64,000 nucleotides of DNA. It comes from Paenibacillus sp. W2I17 (GTDB lineage: Bacteria; Bacillota; Bacilli; Paenibacillales; Paenibacillaceae). Position 1 is the first letter of the stretch. Each line of letters opens with the position of its first letter. A program made the translations under genes and the position numbers. Location: contig NZ_JAUSXM010000001.1 of assembly GCF_030815985.1 (NCBI RefSeq), positions 3,782,001-3,846,000 on the forward strand, given 5' to 3'. Shown piece after piece: positions 39,602 through 56,009 of the stretch. Under the pieces are notes generated by a model. It ran no database searches. It was not told the DNA's origin and saw nothing but the letters and a program-made list of their open reading frames with translations.

Positions 39602-39677
39602 TTTACGTACGGAGGTGAAAACGGTATACTTAAAACTAAAGTTGTGATTATGAAATTACGTTTCATCTGATGAAACT
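39602..39677 (+). promoter_or_regulatory. acnA promoter with IclR-type palindromic operator
   Basis: TTTACG (39602-39607), 17 bases, then TATACT (39625-39630) form a plausible sigma-A promoter. Downstream lie the overlapping palindromes ATGAAA-N5-TTTCAT (39650-39666) and GTTTCATCTGATGAAAC (39660-39676). The second, with the following T, agrees at 16 of 18 positions with the palindrome in the leader of the IclR gene at 53212. The rest of the 380-base region before acnA holds no gene that I can see; a short inverted repeat (AAGAACA/TGTTCTT) lies at about 39686-39714. Confidence 0.6.
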
Positions 39678-39768: not shown

Positions 39769-42483
39769 ATGTCAGCAAAGAATCATTTCTCCGCCGCTCG
39801 CAGTCTTGAGGTTGGAGGCAAGTCTTACCGCTACTACAGTCTCGATGCTCTTCAGGAAAACGGCCACGGCGATCTTTCCAGGCTTCCTTTCTCCATTAAA
39901 GTGTTGCTTGAAGCAGCAATTCGTCAATTCGACGGACGTGCCATCACCGAAGAACACGTAAAACAACTGACCGGCTGGGCAGATGGCCGTGACAATAACA
40001 AGGAAATTCCATTCATCCCTGCACGTATCGTTCTGCAAGATTTCACCGGTGTACCGGTTGTCGTTGACCTCGCTGCAATGCGTGATACTGTGAAAAAAGC
40101 AGGCGGCGATCCAAAACAAATCAACCCGCTCGTACCGGTCGATCTCGTTATCGACCACTCCGTTATGGTTGATGCTTTTGGTACCAACGATGCACTTGAT
40201 TACAATATCAAAGTTGAGTTCGAGCGTAATGAAGAGCGTTACCGCTTCTTGCGTTGGGCACAAACGGCATTCAACAACTTCCGTGCAGTTCCACCATCCA
40301 CAGGGATCGTTCACCAGGTTAACCTGGAGTATCTGGCTTCCGTGGCAGCAACAAAAACCGTTGACGGCGAAACCGTTGTATTTCCGGATTCCCTCGTAGG
40401 TACAGACTCCCATACCACCATGATCAACGGACTTGGCGTTGTTGGTTGGGGTGTTGGTGGAATCGAGGCCGAAGCAGGTATGCTGGGCCAACCGCTTTAT
40501 TTTGTAACACCGGACGTTATCGGTTTCAAACTGACAGGCAGCCTGAGCGAAGGCGCAACAGCAACGGATCTGGCACTGACCGTTACCCAATTGCTTCGTA
40601 AAAAAGGCGTTGTTGGTAAATTCGTTGAGTTCTACGGACCAGGCCTTGCCAACATCGGTCTGGCTGACCGTGCAACAGTAGCCAACATGGCACCAGAATA
40701 TGGCGCAACGATCGGTTTCTTCCCTGTTGATAGTGAAACGTTGAACTATTTGCGTAACACTGGCCGTCCTGACGAACAGGTTGAATTGGTTGAAGCTTAT
40801 TACAAAGCTCAAGGCATGTTCCGTACTTCCAGCACCGTTGATCCTGAATTCACAGATGTGATTGAACTGGATCTCGGCTCTGTTGTACCAAGTCTTGCCG
40901 GACCAAAACGTCCACAGGATCGCATCGAACTGACACAAATGAAAGAAAGCTTCAACAGCATCATCCGCACACCTGTAGATAAAGGCGGCTACGGTCTGAG
41001 CGATGAGAAAATCGAACAATCCGTACCTGTGAAGCATCCGGACGGTTCCAACAGTGAACTGAAGGCAGGCGCTGTTGTGATCGCGGCGATCACAAGTTGT
41101 ACGAACACTTCGAATCCAAGTGTTATGGTTGGAGCGGGACTACTGGCGAAAAAAGCAGTTGAACGCGGCCTGACCAAACCAGGATATGTGAAAAGCAGTC
41201 TGACACCAGGTTCCCTTGTTGTTACCGAGTACCTGGAAAAAGCAGGTCTGATCACGTACCTCGACAAACTCGGATTCAACGTTGCGGGCTACGGTTGTGC
41301 AACATGTATCGGTAACTCCGGTCCACTGCCGGACGAAGTGAGCGAAGCTATTGCTGAGAACGATATGACCGTAGCGGCTGTATTGTCTGGTAACCGTAAC
41401 TTCGAAGGCCGTGTGCATGCACAGGTCAAAGCCAACTACCTGGCATCACCACCACTCGTTGTGGCATATGCACTTGCGGGTACAGTAAATATTGACTTTG
41501 AAACCGATCCAATCGGTTATGATACGAACAATGAGCCTGTGTTCCTGAAAGACCTCTGGCCTACCTCCGAGGAAATCAAGGATACCATCGCTAGTTCCCT
41601 GAACGCTCAGATGTTCCGCAACAAGTACGAGAACGTATTTACAGCCAACGAGCGTTGGAATGCAATCTCTGTACCGGAAGGTGAATTGTACGAGTGGGAC
41701 CCGAACTCCACGTACATTCAGAATCCTCCGTTCTTCCAGGAGCTTGGCGACAAGTTGAACGATATCGCAGATATCCGTTCTGCACGTGTTATGGCATTGC
41801 TTGCGGATTCCGTAACAACGGATCACATCTCGCCAGCAGGTAATATTGCACCATCCAGCCCGGCTGGACTGTACCTGAAAGAGCATGGCGTAGAGCGCAA
41901 AGACTTCAACTCCTACGGTTCACGCCGTGGTAACCATGAAGTCATGATGCGTGGTACATTCGCCAACATTCGTATTCGTAACCAGGTGGCTCCGGGCACC
42001 GAGGGCGGCATCACGAAGTACCTGCCAACGGACGAAGAAATGTCCATCTACGATGCTTCCATGAAGTATCAGGATGAAGGACAGAACCTGATCGTTATCG
42101 CAGGTAAAGAGTATGGTACAGGAAGCTCCCGTGACTGGGCGGCAAAAGGAACATTCTTGCTCGGCGTCAAAGCCGTTATCGCGGAAAGCTTCGAGCGGAT
42201 TCACCGCAGTAACTTGGTGGGCATGGGCGTAATGCCATTGCAATTCCAGGAAGGTCACGGCTGGTCCAGCCTTGGTCTGAACGGACGTGAAACGTATGAC
42301 ATTACTGGCCTCAGCAATGATGTGAAGCCAGGACAAGAGTTGAAAGTTACCGTAACTCGTGAAGACGGTACACAGTTCGAATTCCCTGTCATCGCTCGTC
42401 TGGACAGCATGGTTGACGTGGATTACTACCATAACGGCGGTATCCTGCAAACCGTATTGCGTCAAATGATGAAAAAGGCTTAA
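39769..42483 (+). CDS. acnA: Aconitate hydratase
   Basis: A 904-residue aconitase of the AcnA/IRP1 type, which interconverts citrate and isocitrate in the TCA cycle with a 4Fe-4S cluster. Cluster cysteines lie in [12 protein letters not shown] (about residue 445) and [13 protein letters not shown] (about 510). The active-site stretches [40 protein letters not shown] and [14 protein letters not shown] are present. In other Bacilli this protein also binds RNA. AAGGAGG precedes the ATG. It is a single-gene unit with its own promoter region, a probable operator and a very strong terminator. Confidence 0.97.
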
Positions 42484-52107: not shown

Positions 52108-52198
52108 AATGTCCATCACCAATAATGCACCTTTATGAAACTCCTTAACGGAGCCCTACAAGGGTCACATTATGTGGTGGTTGTGGTCATATCGCCGA

Positions 52199-52295
52199 TT
52201 ACTTCCCTACGCTGGTATGATCCAGATCAGGTGCAAAGGGTCCGGAATCTCATGCGATTCCGTCTCAGTCCGGACAGTTCGGACTCCCCCAGTAA
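52199..52295 (-). promoter_or_regulatory. TPP riboswitch (THI element)
   Basis: Read on the minus strand the region shows the conserved TPP aptamer parts in order: GGGGGAGTCC, ACTGAGA, GACCCTTTGCACCTGATCTGG and ACCAGCGTAGGGAA. P1 is formed by TTACT (52295-52291) and AGTAA (52203-52199). The core strings CTGAGA, ACCTGATCTGG and the final GCGTAGGGAA are diagnostic. It controls thiC. The leader between the IclR gene (stop 52449) and the aptamer also holds two small hairpins, GCGGCA/TGCCGC and GGCCC/GGGCC. No gene was seen between the aptamer and thiC. Confidence 0.95.
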
Positions 52296-52448
52296 CGTTA
52301 ACAAGTTGCGGCACACACATGCCGCCGTTCATATTCAATGAAGCTGGCCCCGCTGGGCCGTCCATTACAGAGTAGCGCAACCGGAACATAAAAACAACCT
52401 TTATATTCCAGAACACCAACTCAATTGGAGAAAAAACTTACATCAACA

Positions 52449-53192
52449 TCAGGATAACATCAGCCCCATTTGCGTAGCAGCATCCTTCAACACAGGTGCG
52501 TATTCATGCAATGTCTCCTGCGAGAGTCGACTGACAGGTCCTGAGACCGAGAGCGCAGCTGCAATATTGCCTCTGCGATCCATAATCGGTACAGATACCG
52601 CGGCAGCTCCCGGCTCACGTTCCTCATAACTCGTCGCATATCCGTTATCCCGGATATCTCCCATTTGCGCCAAATACACTGCCGGATCAATAAACACCGG
52701 CCATTCAGGCCCGTTCATCAGTTCCTCACGATCCTCGTCCGTGGCAAACGCCATCAAAACTTTGCTGGAAGCGCCCACAGACAGCGGGAGTCTAACACCA
52801 ACGGGAGCGACTCGGCGAATCGCCTGATCACTTTGCACAGCCTGAATCCGTATCCGTTCACTGCCATCACGCAGGTACAGACTCACGGTCTCCCCCAATC
52901 GATCTCTCAGTCGCTCCATCGCAGGCAGCAGCAGAATAGCGGGATCATCACTGCGGGACATATGAGCCGACAGCTCCCAGATTCGGATGCCAAGTCGGTA
53001 CTTCTCTGTTGCTGCATCGCGGATCACGAACCCTCGATCCTCCAGCGTAGCCATCAAACGGTGCACTGTACTTTTGTGCAGGCCAATCTGGCTGGCAATT
53101 TCGGTGAGTCCCAGATCACTGCGTGTGGTAAAACATAATAATATATCCAGCGCCCGTTCCACAGCCCGGACGGTTAACTTGCGATCTTCCAT
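52449..53192 (-). CDS. IclR family transcriptional regulator
   Basis: A 247-residue regulator. The N-terminal winged helix (about 1-75) has LTEIASQIGLHKSTVHRLMATLEDRGFV. The C-terminal effector domain (about 80-247) has VAPVGVRLPLSVGASSKVLMAF and YATSYEEREPGAAAVSVPI with the usual ligand-pocket residues. IclR proteins respond to small organic acids or sugar acids. A sigma-A promoter and a GTTTCATCACATGAAAC palindrome lie just upstream, so it probably controls itself. The nearly identical palindrome in front of acnA suggests that aconitase is a second target. Confidence 0.93.
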   Translation of the reverse strand: MEDRKLTVRAVERALDILLCFTTRSDLGLTEIASQIGLHKSTVHRLMATLEDRGFVIRDAATEKYRLGIRIWELSAHMSRSDDPAILLLPAMERLRDRLGETVSLYLRDGSERIRIQAVQSDQAIRRVAPVGVRLPLSVGASSKVLMAFATDEDREELMNGPEWPVFIDPAVYLAQMGDIRDNGYATSYEEREPGAAAVSVPIMDRRGNIAAALSVSGPVSRLSQETLHEYAPVLKDAATQMGLMLS

Positions 53193-53211: not shown

Positions 53212-53269
53212 GTTTCATCACATGAAACTTGGTTACATAAATTATATGAGAAACGGTCTCATCTGTAAA
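53212..53269 (-). promoter_or_regulatory. Promoter and operator of the IclR gene
   Basis: On the minus strand TTTACA (53269-53264), 17 bases and TATAAT (53246-53241) form a near-consensus sigma-A promoter. The palindrome GTTTCATCACATGAAAC (53228-53212) lies just downstream of the expected transcription start and ahead of the ribosome site, the usual place for an autorepressor. A looser repeat (ATGAG-N7-CTCAT) overlaps the promoter spacer. Confidence 0.75.
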
Positions 53270-54728: not shown

Positions 54729-56009
54729 ATGAACTGGTATGGATATGGTCACCTGCTGCCTCTGCGGACATTGGAGGAAATCCGTTTCTGGAAAGAGCAG
54801 GAGAAAGAACATACACTCGTCATTCGTGCCCTGGTTCCTGATCTGGAGCCCCCGTACGTCAAGCTACTGGAGGAATGGGAGGTTACCTTTGCAAACAGTG
54901 AACGAGTAGCCAATCAGCTTTTAAAACAACTATTGCCTGGAACCCATCCGCCTGCTCCCTACATCGTTCGTTGTATCGATCAACTTGTGTTGGCAGCTCG
55001 GCAGCAATCGAGAGAGTTCATCAAACAGCTGTATGTTCTTCTGGAGCAAAGTGCTGCTGTGCAAGCTGTTCCGCTTGCCAAAGTACTCATTCTGCATTTT
55101 ATCCGCGAATCGGAGTATTTTCTGGGCGTATTGGATACGCTTGGCCAACCTGGCATCTTACGCGAAACGGATTCGGAGCCATCACTTTTTCTGGAAAATG
55201 CGTTGCATACGTCAGTGTCAGGAAGTGTCCATCGCCAAGCTTCAGAAGCTCCAACTTCTCCAGAGGGGAATGTAAATGCACCTGCCGCTTCAGCTCAGAT
55301 CCAATCCGCAACCGTTCAACCGCCTTCTACCGGAGCAACACAAGCCACACCCAGCTCTACAGCACCTCCCGTAAAAGAGAAGCCGGTTCCCATCGGAGGA
55401 CACACACTGCCCCCTCTCCCCTATGCGTACAATGCGCTGGAGCCACATATTGATGAGCTGACGATGCGTATCCATCATGACAAACACCATCAATCTTATG
55501 TGGATGGACTAAATGTAGCAGAGAAGAAGCTGGCGGAATCGCGAAAAAAGAATAACTTTGAACTCATCAAACATTGGGAACGTGAACTTGCCTTCAACGG
55601 GGCAGGCCACTACCTGCATACGATCTTCTGGACAATTATGAATCCTGCTGGCGGCGGCAAACCTTCCGGTATGCTGGCAGAGCAGATCAAGCGGGATTTC
55701 GGAAGTTATGAAGCGTTTAAGAATCAATTCACAGAAGCCGCGAACAAGGTGGAAGGCAGTGGCTGGGCGATGCTTGTCTGGAGCCCGAGAGCACATCGTT
55801 TGGAGATTTTGCAGGCGGAAAAACACCAGAACCTGTCCCAGTCCGATATCGTACCGCTCCTGCCACTGGATGTGTGGGAACATGCCTACTATCTGAAACA
55901 TCAGAATGAACGCAAAAAGTATATCGAGGATTGGTGGAATGTTGTCTACTGGCCCGCTGTTGCCGAGCGTTACGAAACAGCACGCAAGTTGTTGTGGCCG
56001 CCTTATTAA
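54729..56009 (+). CDS. DUF2935-like domain fused to Fe/Mn superoxide dismutase
   Basis: A 426-residue fusion. Residues about 1-150 resemble a DUF2935-type helical bundle (EEIRFWKEQEKEHTLVIRAL, then HFIRESEYFL), a ferritin-like fold with possible metal-binding His/Glu. A Ser/Pro/Thr/Ala-rich linker spans about 160-220. The SOD domain (about 225-426) has all four metal ligands: H249 in MRIHHDKHHQSYV, H297 in GHYLHTIFW, and D381 and H385 in [12 protein letters not shown]. It would convert superoxide to peroxide and oxygen. It differs strongly from the normal SOD at 63450. ATG follows GAAGGAGG. No signal peptide is visible. Confidence 0.88.
   Translation: MNWYGYGHLLPLRTLEEIRFWKEQEKEHTLVIRALVPDLEPPYVKLLEEWEVTFANSERVANQLLKQLLPGTHPPAPYIVRCIDQLVLAARQQSREFIKQLYVLLEQSAAVQAVPLAKVLILHFIRESEYFLGVLDTLGQPGILRETDSEPSLFLENALHTSVSGSVHRQASEAPTSPEGNVNAPAASAQIQSATVQPPSTGATQATPSSTAPPVKEKPVPIGGHTLPPLPYAYNALEPHIDELTMRIHHDKHHQSYVDGLNVAEKKLAESRKKNNFELIKHWERELAFNGAGHYLHTIFWTIMNPAGGGKPSGMLAEQIKRDFGSYEAFKNQFTEAANKVEGSGWAMLVWSPRAHRLEILQAEKHQNLSQSDIVPLLPLDVWEHAYYLKHQNERKKYIEDWWNVVYWPAVAERYETARKLLWPPY

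Follow-up and report, generated by a model that had tools for sequence, protein, structure and literature searches.

Aconitase occupies a branch point in central metabolism. The window, by which we mean the whole 64,000-nucleotide stretch of Paenibacillus sp. W2I17 DNA that was analyzed, carries acnA and, with ~10 kb between them, a gene for an IclR-family regulator. A sequence-only reading had proposed that the leaders of the two genes share a palindrome through which the IclR protein represses itself and aconitase. Judging from comparative sequence analysis, we consider it highly probable that this protein is a dedicated, usually autoregulated aconitase regulator that would bind a three-box operator, with both genes most likely repressed until an effector arrives. 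The three-box operator itself, a set of further putative targets, and the proximity of acnA and iclR as neighbors in most relatives go beyond that reading.

The acnA and iclR leaders share a three-box operator

The relevant features of the window are as follows.

39602..39630, + strand: predicted acnA promoter, TTTACG-17-TATACT (consensus scan, 9/12 matches)
39651..39676, + strand: putative acnA operator, three boxes TGAAAT TAC GTTTCA TCTGA TGAAAC (0 mismatches to TGWAAY-N3-GTTTCA-N5-TGAAAC)
39769..42483, + strand: acnA, aconitate hydratase, 904 aa (NCBIfam TIGR01341 and NF006757 above cut-off; Pfam Aconitase and Aconitase_C)
52449..53192, - strand: iclR-family regulator gene, 247 aa, with HTH_IclR and an IclR_C effector domain (Pfam PF09339 and PF01614 above cut-off)
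53212..53237, - strand: putative iclR operator, three boxes TGTAAC CAA GTTTCA TGTGA TGAAAC (0 mismatches)
53241..53269, - strand: predicted iclR promoter, TTTACA-17-TATAAT (11/12 matches)

The two palindromes, GTTTCATCTGATGAAACT before acnA (39660-39677) and GTTTCATCACATGAAACT before iclR (53212-53229), are identical save for two central bases, as had been read. The arms are 8 bp long and perfect in the acnA core, and 7 bp long in the iclR core. The pattern GTTTCATC-N2-ATGAAAC had no occurrence in 300 randomized windows generated by a first-order Markov model, and GTTTCA-N5-TGAAAC occurred in 300 simulated windows with a mean of 0.01 and never twice together. In the 7,008,369-base genome, exact GTTTCA-N5-TGAAAC is present at three sites, including those of acnA and iclR, and its reversed control at none.

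We aligned 104 acnA and 107 iclR non-redundant leaders on the core. The alignment excludes near-identical relatives, duplicates, two iclR leaders that lack a site, the 8 control rows, and any row in which fewer than 60 bases precede the site. The consensus of the core is GTTTCAY-N3-RTGAAAC, which fits the GTT-11-AAC type of IclR sites, and that of the full operator is TGWAAY-N3-GTTTCA-N5-TGAAAC. Core boxes carry near 2 bits of information, with most flanking positions below 0.5, and at acnA the core boxes are conserved at 94-100% per position. The additional box lies 3 bp before the core. At acnA it reads TGAAAT in 104/104 leaders and is preceded by a T-rich stretch, and at iclR it is mostly TGTAAC, at 80-98% per position over the 107 leaders. 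A second, overlapping palindrome reported before acnA is real and corresponds to boxes 1 and 2 of this arrangement.

Three-box IclR-family sites with alternating directions are a published architecture (Suvorova and Gelfand 2021, PMC8222616). There, the two box pairs, GTTYCRYW3RYGRAAC as the main one and TGRAACAN1-2TGTTYCA upstream of it, have the middle box in common, the regulons are small, and PcaU is cited as the experimental case. Boxes 1 and 2 resemble the upstream pair of this IclR subgroup, departing from it by a last base T at acnA, a third base T at iclR, and a spacer A/T that is not kept. The KdgR-type likeness suggested earlier holds for the upstream box pair and not for the main palindrome, which follows the other arrangement described there (PMC8222616).

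Operator position relative to predicted promoters

Both palindromes lie just downstream of promoter-like hexamers, in agreement with the earlier description (acnA 9/12 and iclR 11/12 matches). One such promoter was found for acnA vs a shuffle mean of 0.4, and two in the iclR stretch vs a shuffle mean of 2.0, so that the iclR hexamer count alone is not above chance. Across the 107 iclR leaders, a TTGACA-like -35 and a TATAAT -10 are conserved, with constant spacing to the operator, and thus the operator covers the predicted iclR start. In the window, the iclR operator starts 3 bp past the -10 and ends 19 bp short of the start codon. Transcription of acnA probably starts near 39637, leaving ~14 bp between the start and the first box. 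The distance from the end of the acnA core to the start codon ranges from 14 to 200 bp across species; the element is therefore retained while its surroundings change, and for many species it is uncertain where the operator lies with respect to the start of transcription.

From this position we infer repression of acnA. IclR would bind the operator, which overlaps or closely follows the predicted transcription starts of iclR and acnA, and the bound protein would most likely block transcription from its own promoter and from the acnA promoter. The same sites could also be bound by IclR with activation of acnA as the outcome, as some IclR-family proteins are activators. Activators rarely act at sites over or downstream of a transcription start, where both sites in the window are predicted to lie, and we regard activation as unlikely, with odds that overlap those of the best explanation.

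It is very improbable that the inverted repeats are instead RNA elements, forming alternative leader hairpins that control the acnA mRNA. The acnA site does lie downstream of the predicted start, and by eye two mutually exclusive hairpins could arise from the three boxes. However, the iclR operator overlaps its predicted transcription start, no Rfam family is found at the site, and core positions 7/11 are a non-pairing C-A in 16 vs C-G in 16 of 104 acnA leaders. The site is also absent where IclR is absent, as described below.

The regulator and its neighborhood

The window protein belongs to the IclR family by its Pfam scores (PF09339, 62.6 bits, cut-off 22; PF01614, 111.6 bits, cut-off 24). 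It falls below every NCBIfam cut-off for the known IclR equivalogs KdgR, IclR, AllR, BhcR, and PcaR, with the best score for BhcR (146.6 bits vs a cut-off of 350) and 132.2 vs 275 for KdgR. It is 97-100% identical to the IclR of records labelled P. amylolyticus, P. xylanexedens, and others. Its effector domain retains the IRRVA and EERE segments among 124 orthologue sequences, some of them closely related, and these segments could bind an acid. IclR would be released from the operator by a small effector molecule, which is probably an organic acid tied to the aconitase step.

Two other features were observed near iclR. A TPP riboswitch at 52187-52300 (-) lies between iclR and thiC, placing thiC under control of its own, and a single reading frame at 54729-56009 (+) fuses an N-terminal DUF2935 to superoxide dismutase domains.

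Conservation and linkage in Paenibacillales and other Bacilli

Within the order Paenibacillales, IclR was found in 116/119 genomes (E 1e-30) and acnA in 119/119. Conservation beside acnA in relatives was borne out in the 42 of these 119 genomes that were hand-picked to span families and genera, as the acnA core is present in 42/42 (33 exact, 9 one-mismatch). The iclR core in the same 42 is exact in 33, has one mismatch in 5 and two in 2, and is missing from 2 (L267, L273). In rows from genus genomes plus named loci, the acnA core is found in 106/106 (99 exact, 7 one-mismatch) and the iclR core is exact in 143/143; the two sets overlap in genomes, and this recount left out loci L001-L043. Locus L115 had seemed to be an acnA exception in this set, but a one-mismatch site is present there. 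Counts from related genomes such as these are non-independent.

The extended operator at ≤1 mismatch was found in 38/40 order genomes, vs 0/40 for a reversed control. It precedes acnA in 36/40, the misses being three genomes without IclR and one acnA cut by a contig end. Before iclR, the three-box site at ≤1 mismatch is present in 23/37 order genomes with IclR and absent in 14/37; given these and the absence of the core in L267 and L273, autoregulation would not be universal. In the three of 119 order genomes that lack the regulator, the acnA leader does not contain the site. Five relatives (L259-L263) carry a second acnA copy, and none of these five copies is preceded by the site either; the second copy of G010 was left out of this set. 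Across all these leaders, even the best match has 3 to 5 mismatches over 12 positions.

The two genes are also linked. They are convergent on one contig in 34/37 order genomes having both, with gaps of 27 bp to 34 kb: <5 kb in 25, 10-11 kb in 5 (the genus of the window), and 18-34 kb in 4. In the remaining three they lie on different contigs (two genomes) or far apart (one). At 13 loci from two other families of the class Bacilli, acnA and iclR are divergent neighbors.

At the class level, the operator was found in 101/145 IclR-positive vs 15/154 IclR-negative genomes, with a reversed control giving 11 matches in 8/299. It is absent at ≤1 mismatch from 44/145 IclR-positive genomes, and some of the IclR proteins in those 44 (44-50% identical) may recognize an altered site or be different regulators. 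Among 30 class-level loci listed, 22 have an acnA-facing site (3 of these also an iclR-facing one), one has an iclR-facing site only, and seven have neither, six of the seven being in genomes without IclR. One genome (G179) has the acnA operator and no IclR at threshold among 9 of 20 candidates scored.

The proposal that IclR acts on its own gene and on acnA is thus supported by conservation, linkage, co-occurrence, and the absence of the site where the regulator is missing and at second acnA copies, with repression as the probable effect. We infer from the sequence that IclR is the binding protein, and another transcription factor might own the operator and regulate both iclR and acnA, leaving IclR a mere target. 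Unlinked targets, described below, would suit such a factor. However, the site tracks the presence of IclR across genomes, acnA and iclR stay linked, and the three-box pattern is of a published IclR-family type, which makes another factor quite improbable. A common intergenic repeat was rejected as an explanation: the palindrome is not scattered, as exact core sites total 222 over 60 genomes, each genome having 2 to 6, vs 41 for the reversed control.

Further candidate targets

The sequence-only reading had suggested a genome-wide search at ≤2 mismatches for sites before citric acid cycle, glyoxylate, or organic acid genes. This search ran but was noisy, giving 54 matches on both strands vs 14 for the control. 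The loose pattern matched at 43 places, of which 33 fall within open frames at least 100 codons long, and it was rejected as a definition of the regulon. At ≤1 mismatch the genome has five sites, none of which precedes another citric acid cycle gene. A third exact core site faces a VOC gene and a one-mismatch site faces a methyltransferase gene. Genome position 361655 (L004) was not counted as a target, as it lies inside a 512-residue open frame. The VOC gene of the window genome (L022 1100-1520 (-), genome position 2160338) carries an in-frame stop, and its counterpart in relatives G011, G023, and G025 is an open frame of 124 residues.

With the extended operator, the 40 order genomes have 28 sites that belong to neither acnA nor iclR. 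Half of them (14/28) face a small VOC/glyoxalase-like gene, with two matches partial and one gene having an in-frame stop. The others face an MFS transporter (3/28), YcgJ-type methyltransferase 1 (4/28), methyltransferase 2 (1/28), or no assigned gene (6/28, with surroundings examined for 4). The VOC protein matches Pfam Glyoxalase (24.0 bits vs a cut-off of 20.6) and the structure 2QQZ, a putative glyoxalase. Methyltransferase 1 most resembles BH2331 (1VL5) and YcgJ (1XXL). No NCBIfam cut-off was reached by the VOC, methyltransferase, or MFS proteins among the matches listed, and as a trans-aconitate methyltransferase, methyltransferase 2 scores 42.0 bits vs an NCBIfam cut-off of 297. In one relative, G017 (L331), a full operator precedes by 78 bp a gene resembling amidohydrolases, whose best NCBIfam match scores 35.9 bits vs a cut-off of 500.

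Judged by site position, IclR would in many relatives also control the VOC/glyoxalase-like gene; some relatives would add a SAM methyltransferase or an MFS transporter to its targets. It is possible, if doubtful, that the regulator responds to disturbance of the aconitase reaction itself, such as build-up of citrate or aconitate or an aconitase blocker, and raises aconitase along with a set of detoxification proteins made up of the VOC protein, methyltransferases, and an efflux-type transporter. If true, the proposed regulation would provide a concrete aconitase regulator, operator, and gene set for Paenibacillus and other Bacilli, in which control as in B. subtilis may not hold. It would also tie proteins without a known role to the aconitase step, namely the VOC protein, kin of the uncharacterized structure 2QQZ, and YcgJ-type methyltransferases.

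Comparison with known systems

In Bacillus subtilis, the LysR-family protein CcpC controls aconitase and citrate synthase. The IclR of the window would share with it the control of aconitase; unlike CcpC, none of the five ≤1-mismatch sites in the window genome faces citrate synthase. Escherichia coli IclR controls the glyoxylate bypass and gamma-proteobacterial KdgR the use of pectin sugars. Both belong to the same protein family as the window protein, which lies far below their NCBIfam cut-offs. KdgR reads GAAAC/GTTTC boxes in the other of the two arrangements, according to Table 1 of PMC8222616.

AcnR of Corynebacterium glutamicum is described as a TetR-type repressor of acn (PMC9484086). 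The likeness is that of a repressor of an aconitase gene, with repression by the window IclR suggested by the site position. AcnR is in the TetR family, and is thus an unrelated kind of protein. We found no report of a link between IclR and aconitase in the literature searched, mostly outside subscription journals. In the main text of PMC8222616, aconit, citrate, COG1048, and Paenibacill are all without a match, and its supplementary tables may contain an earlier prediction. The closest likeness is to the three-box IclR sites described in that article (PMC8222616): the operator described here has the same main and upstream pairs, the shared middle box, and a small regulon, and differs in that the first box at acnA ends in T, not C.
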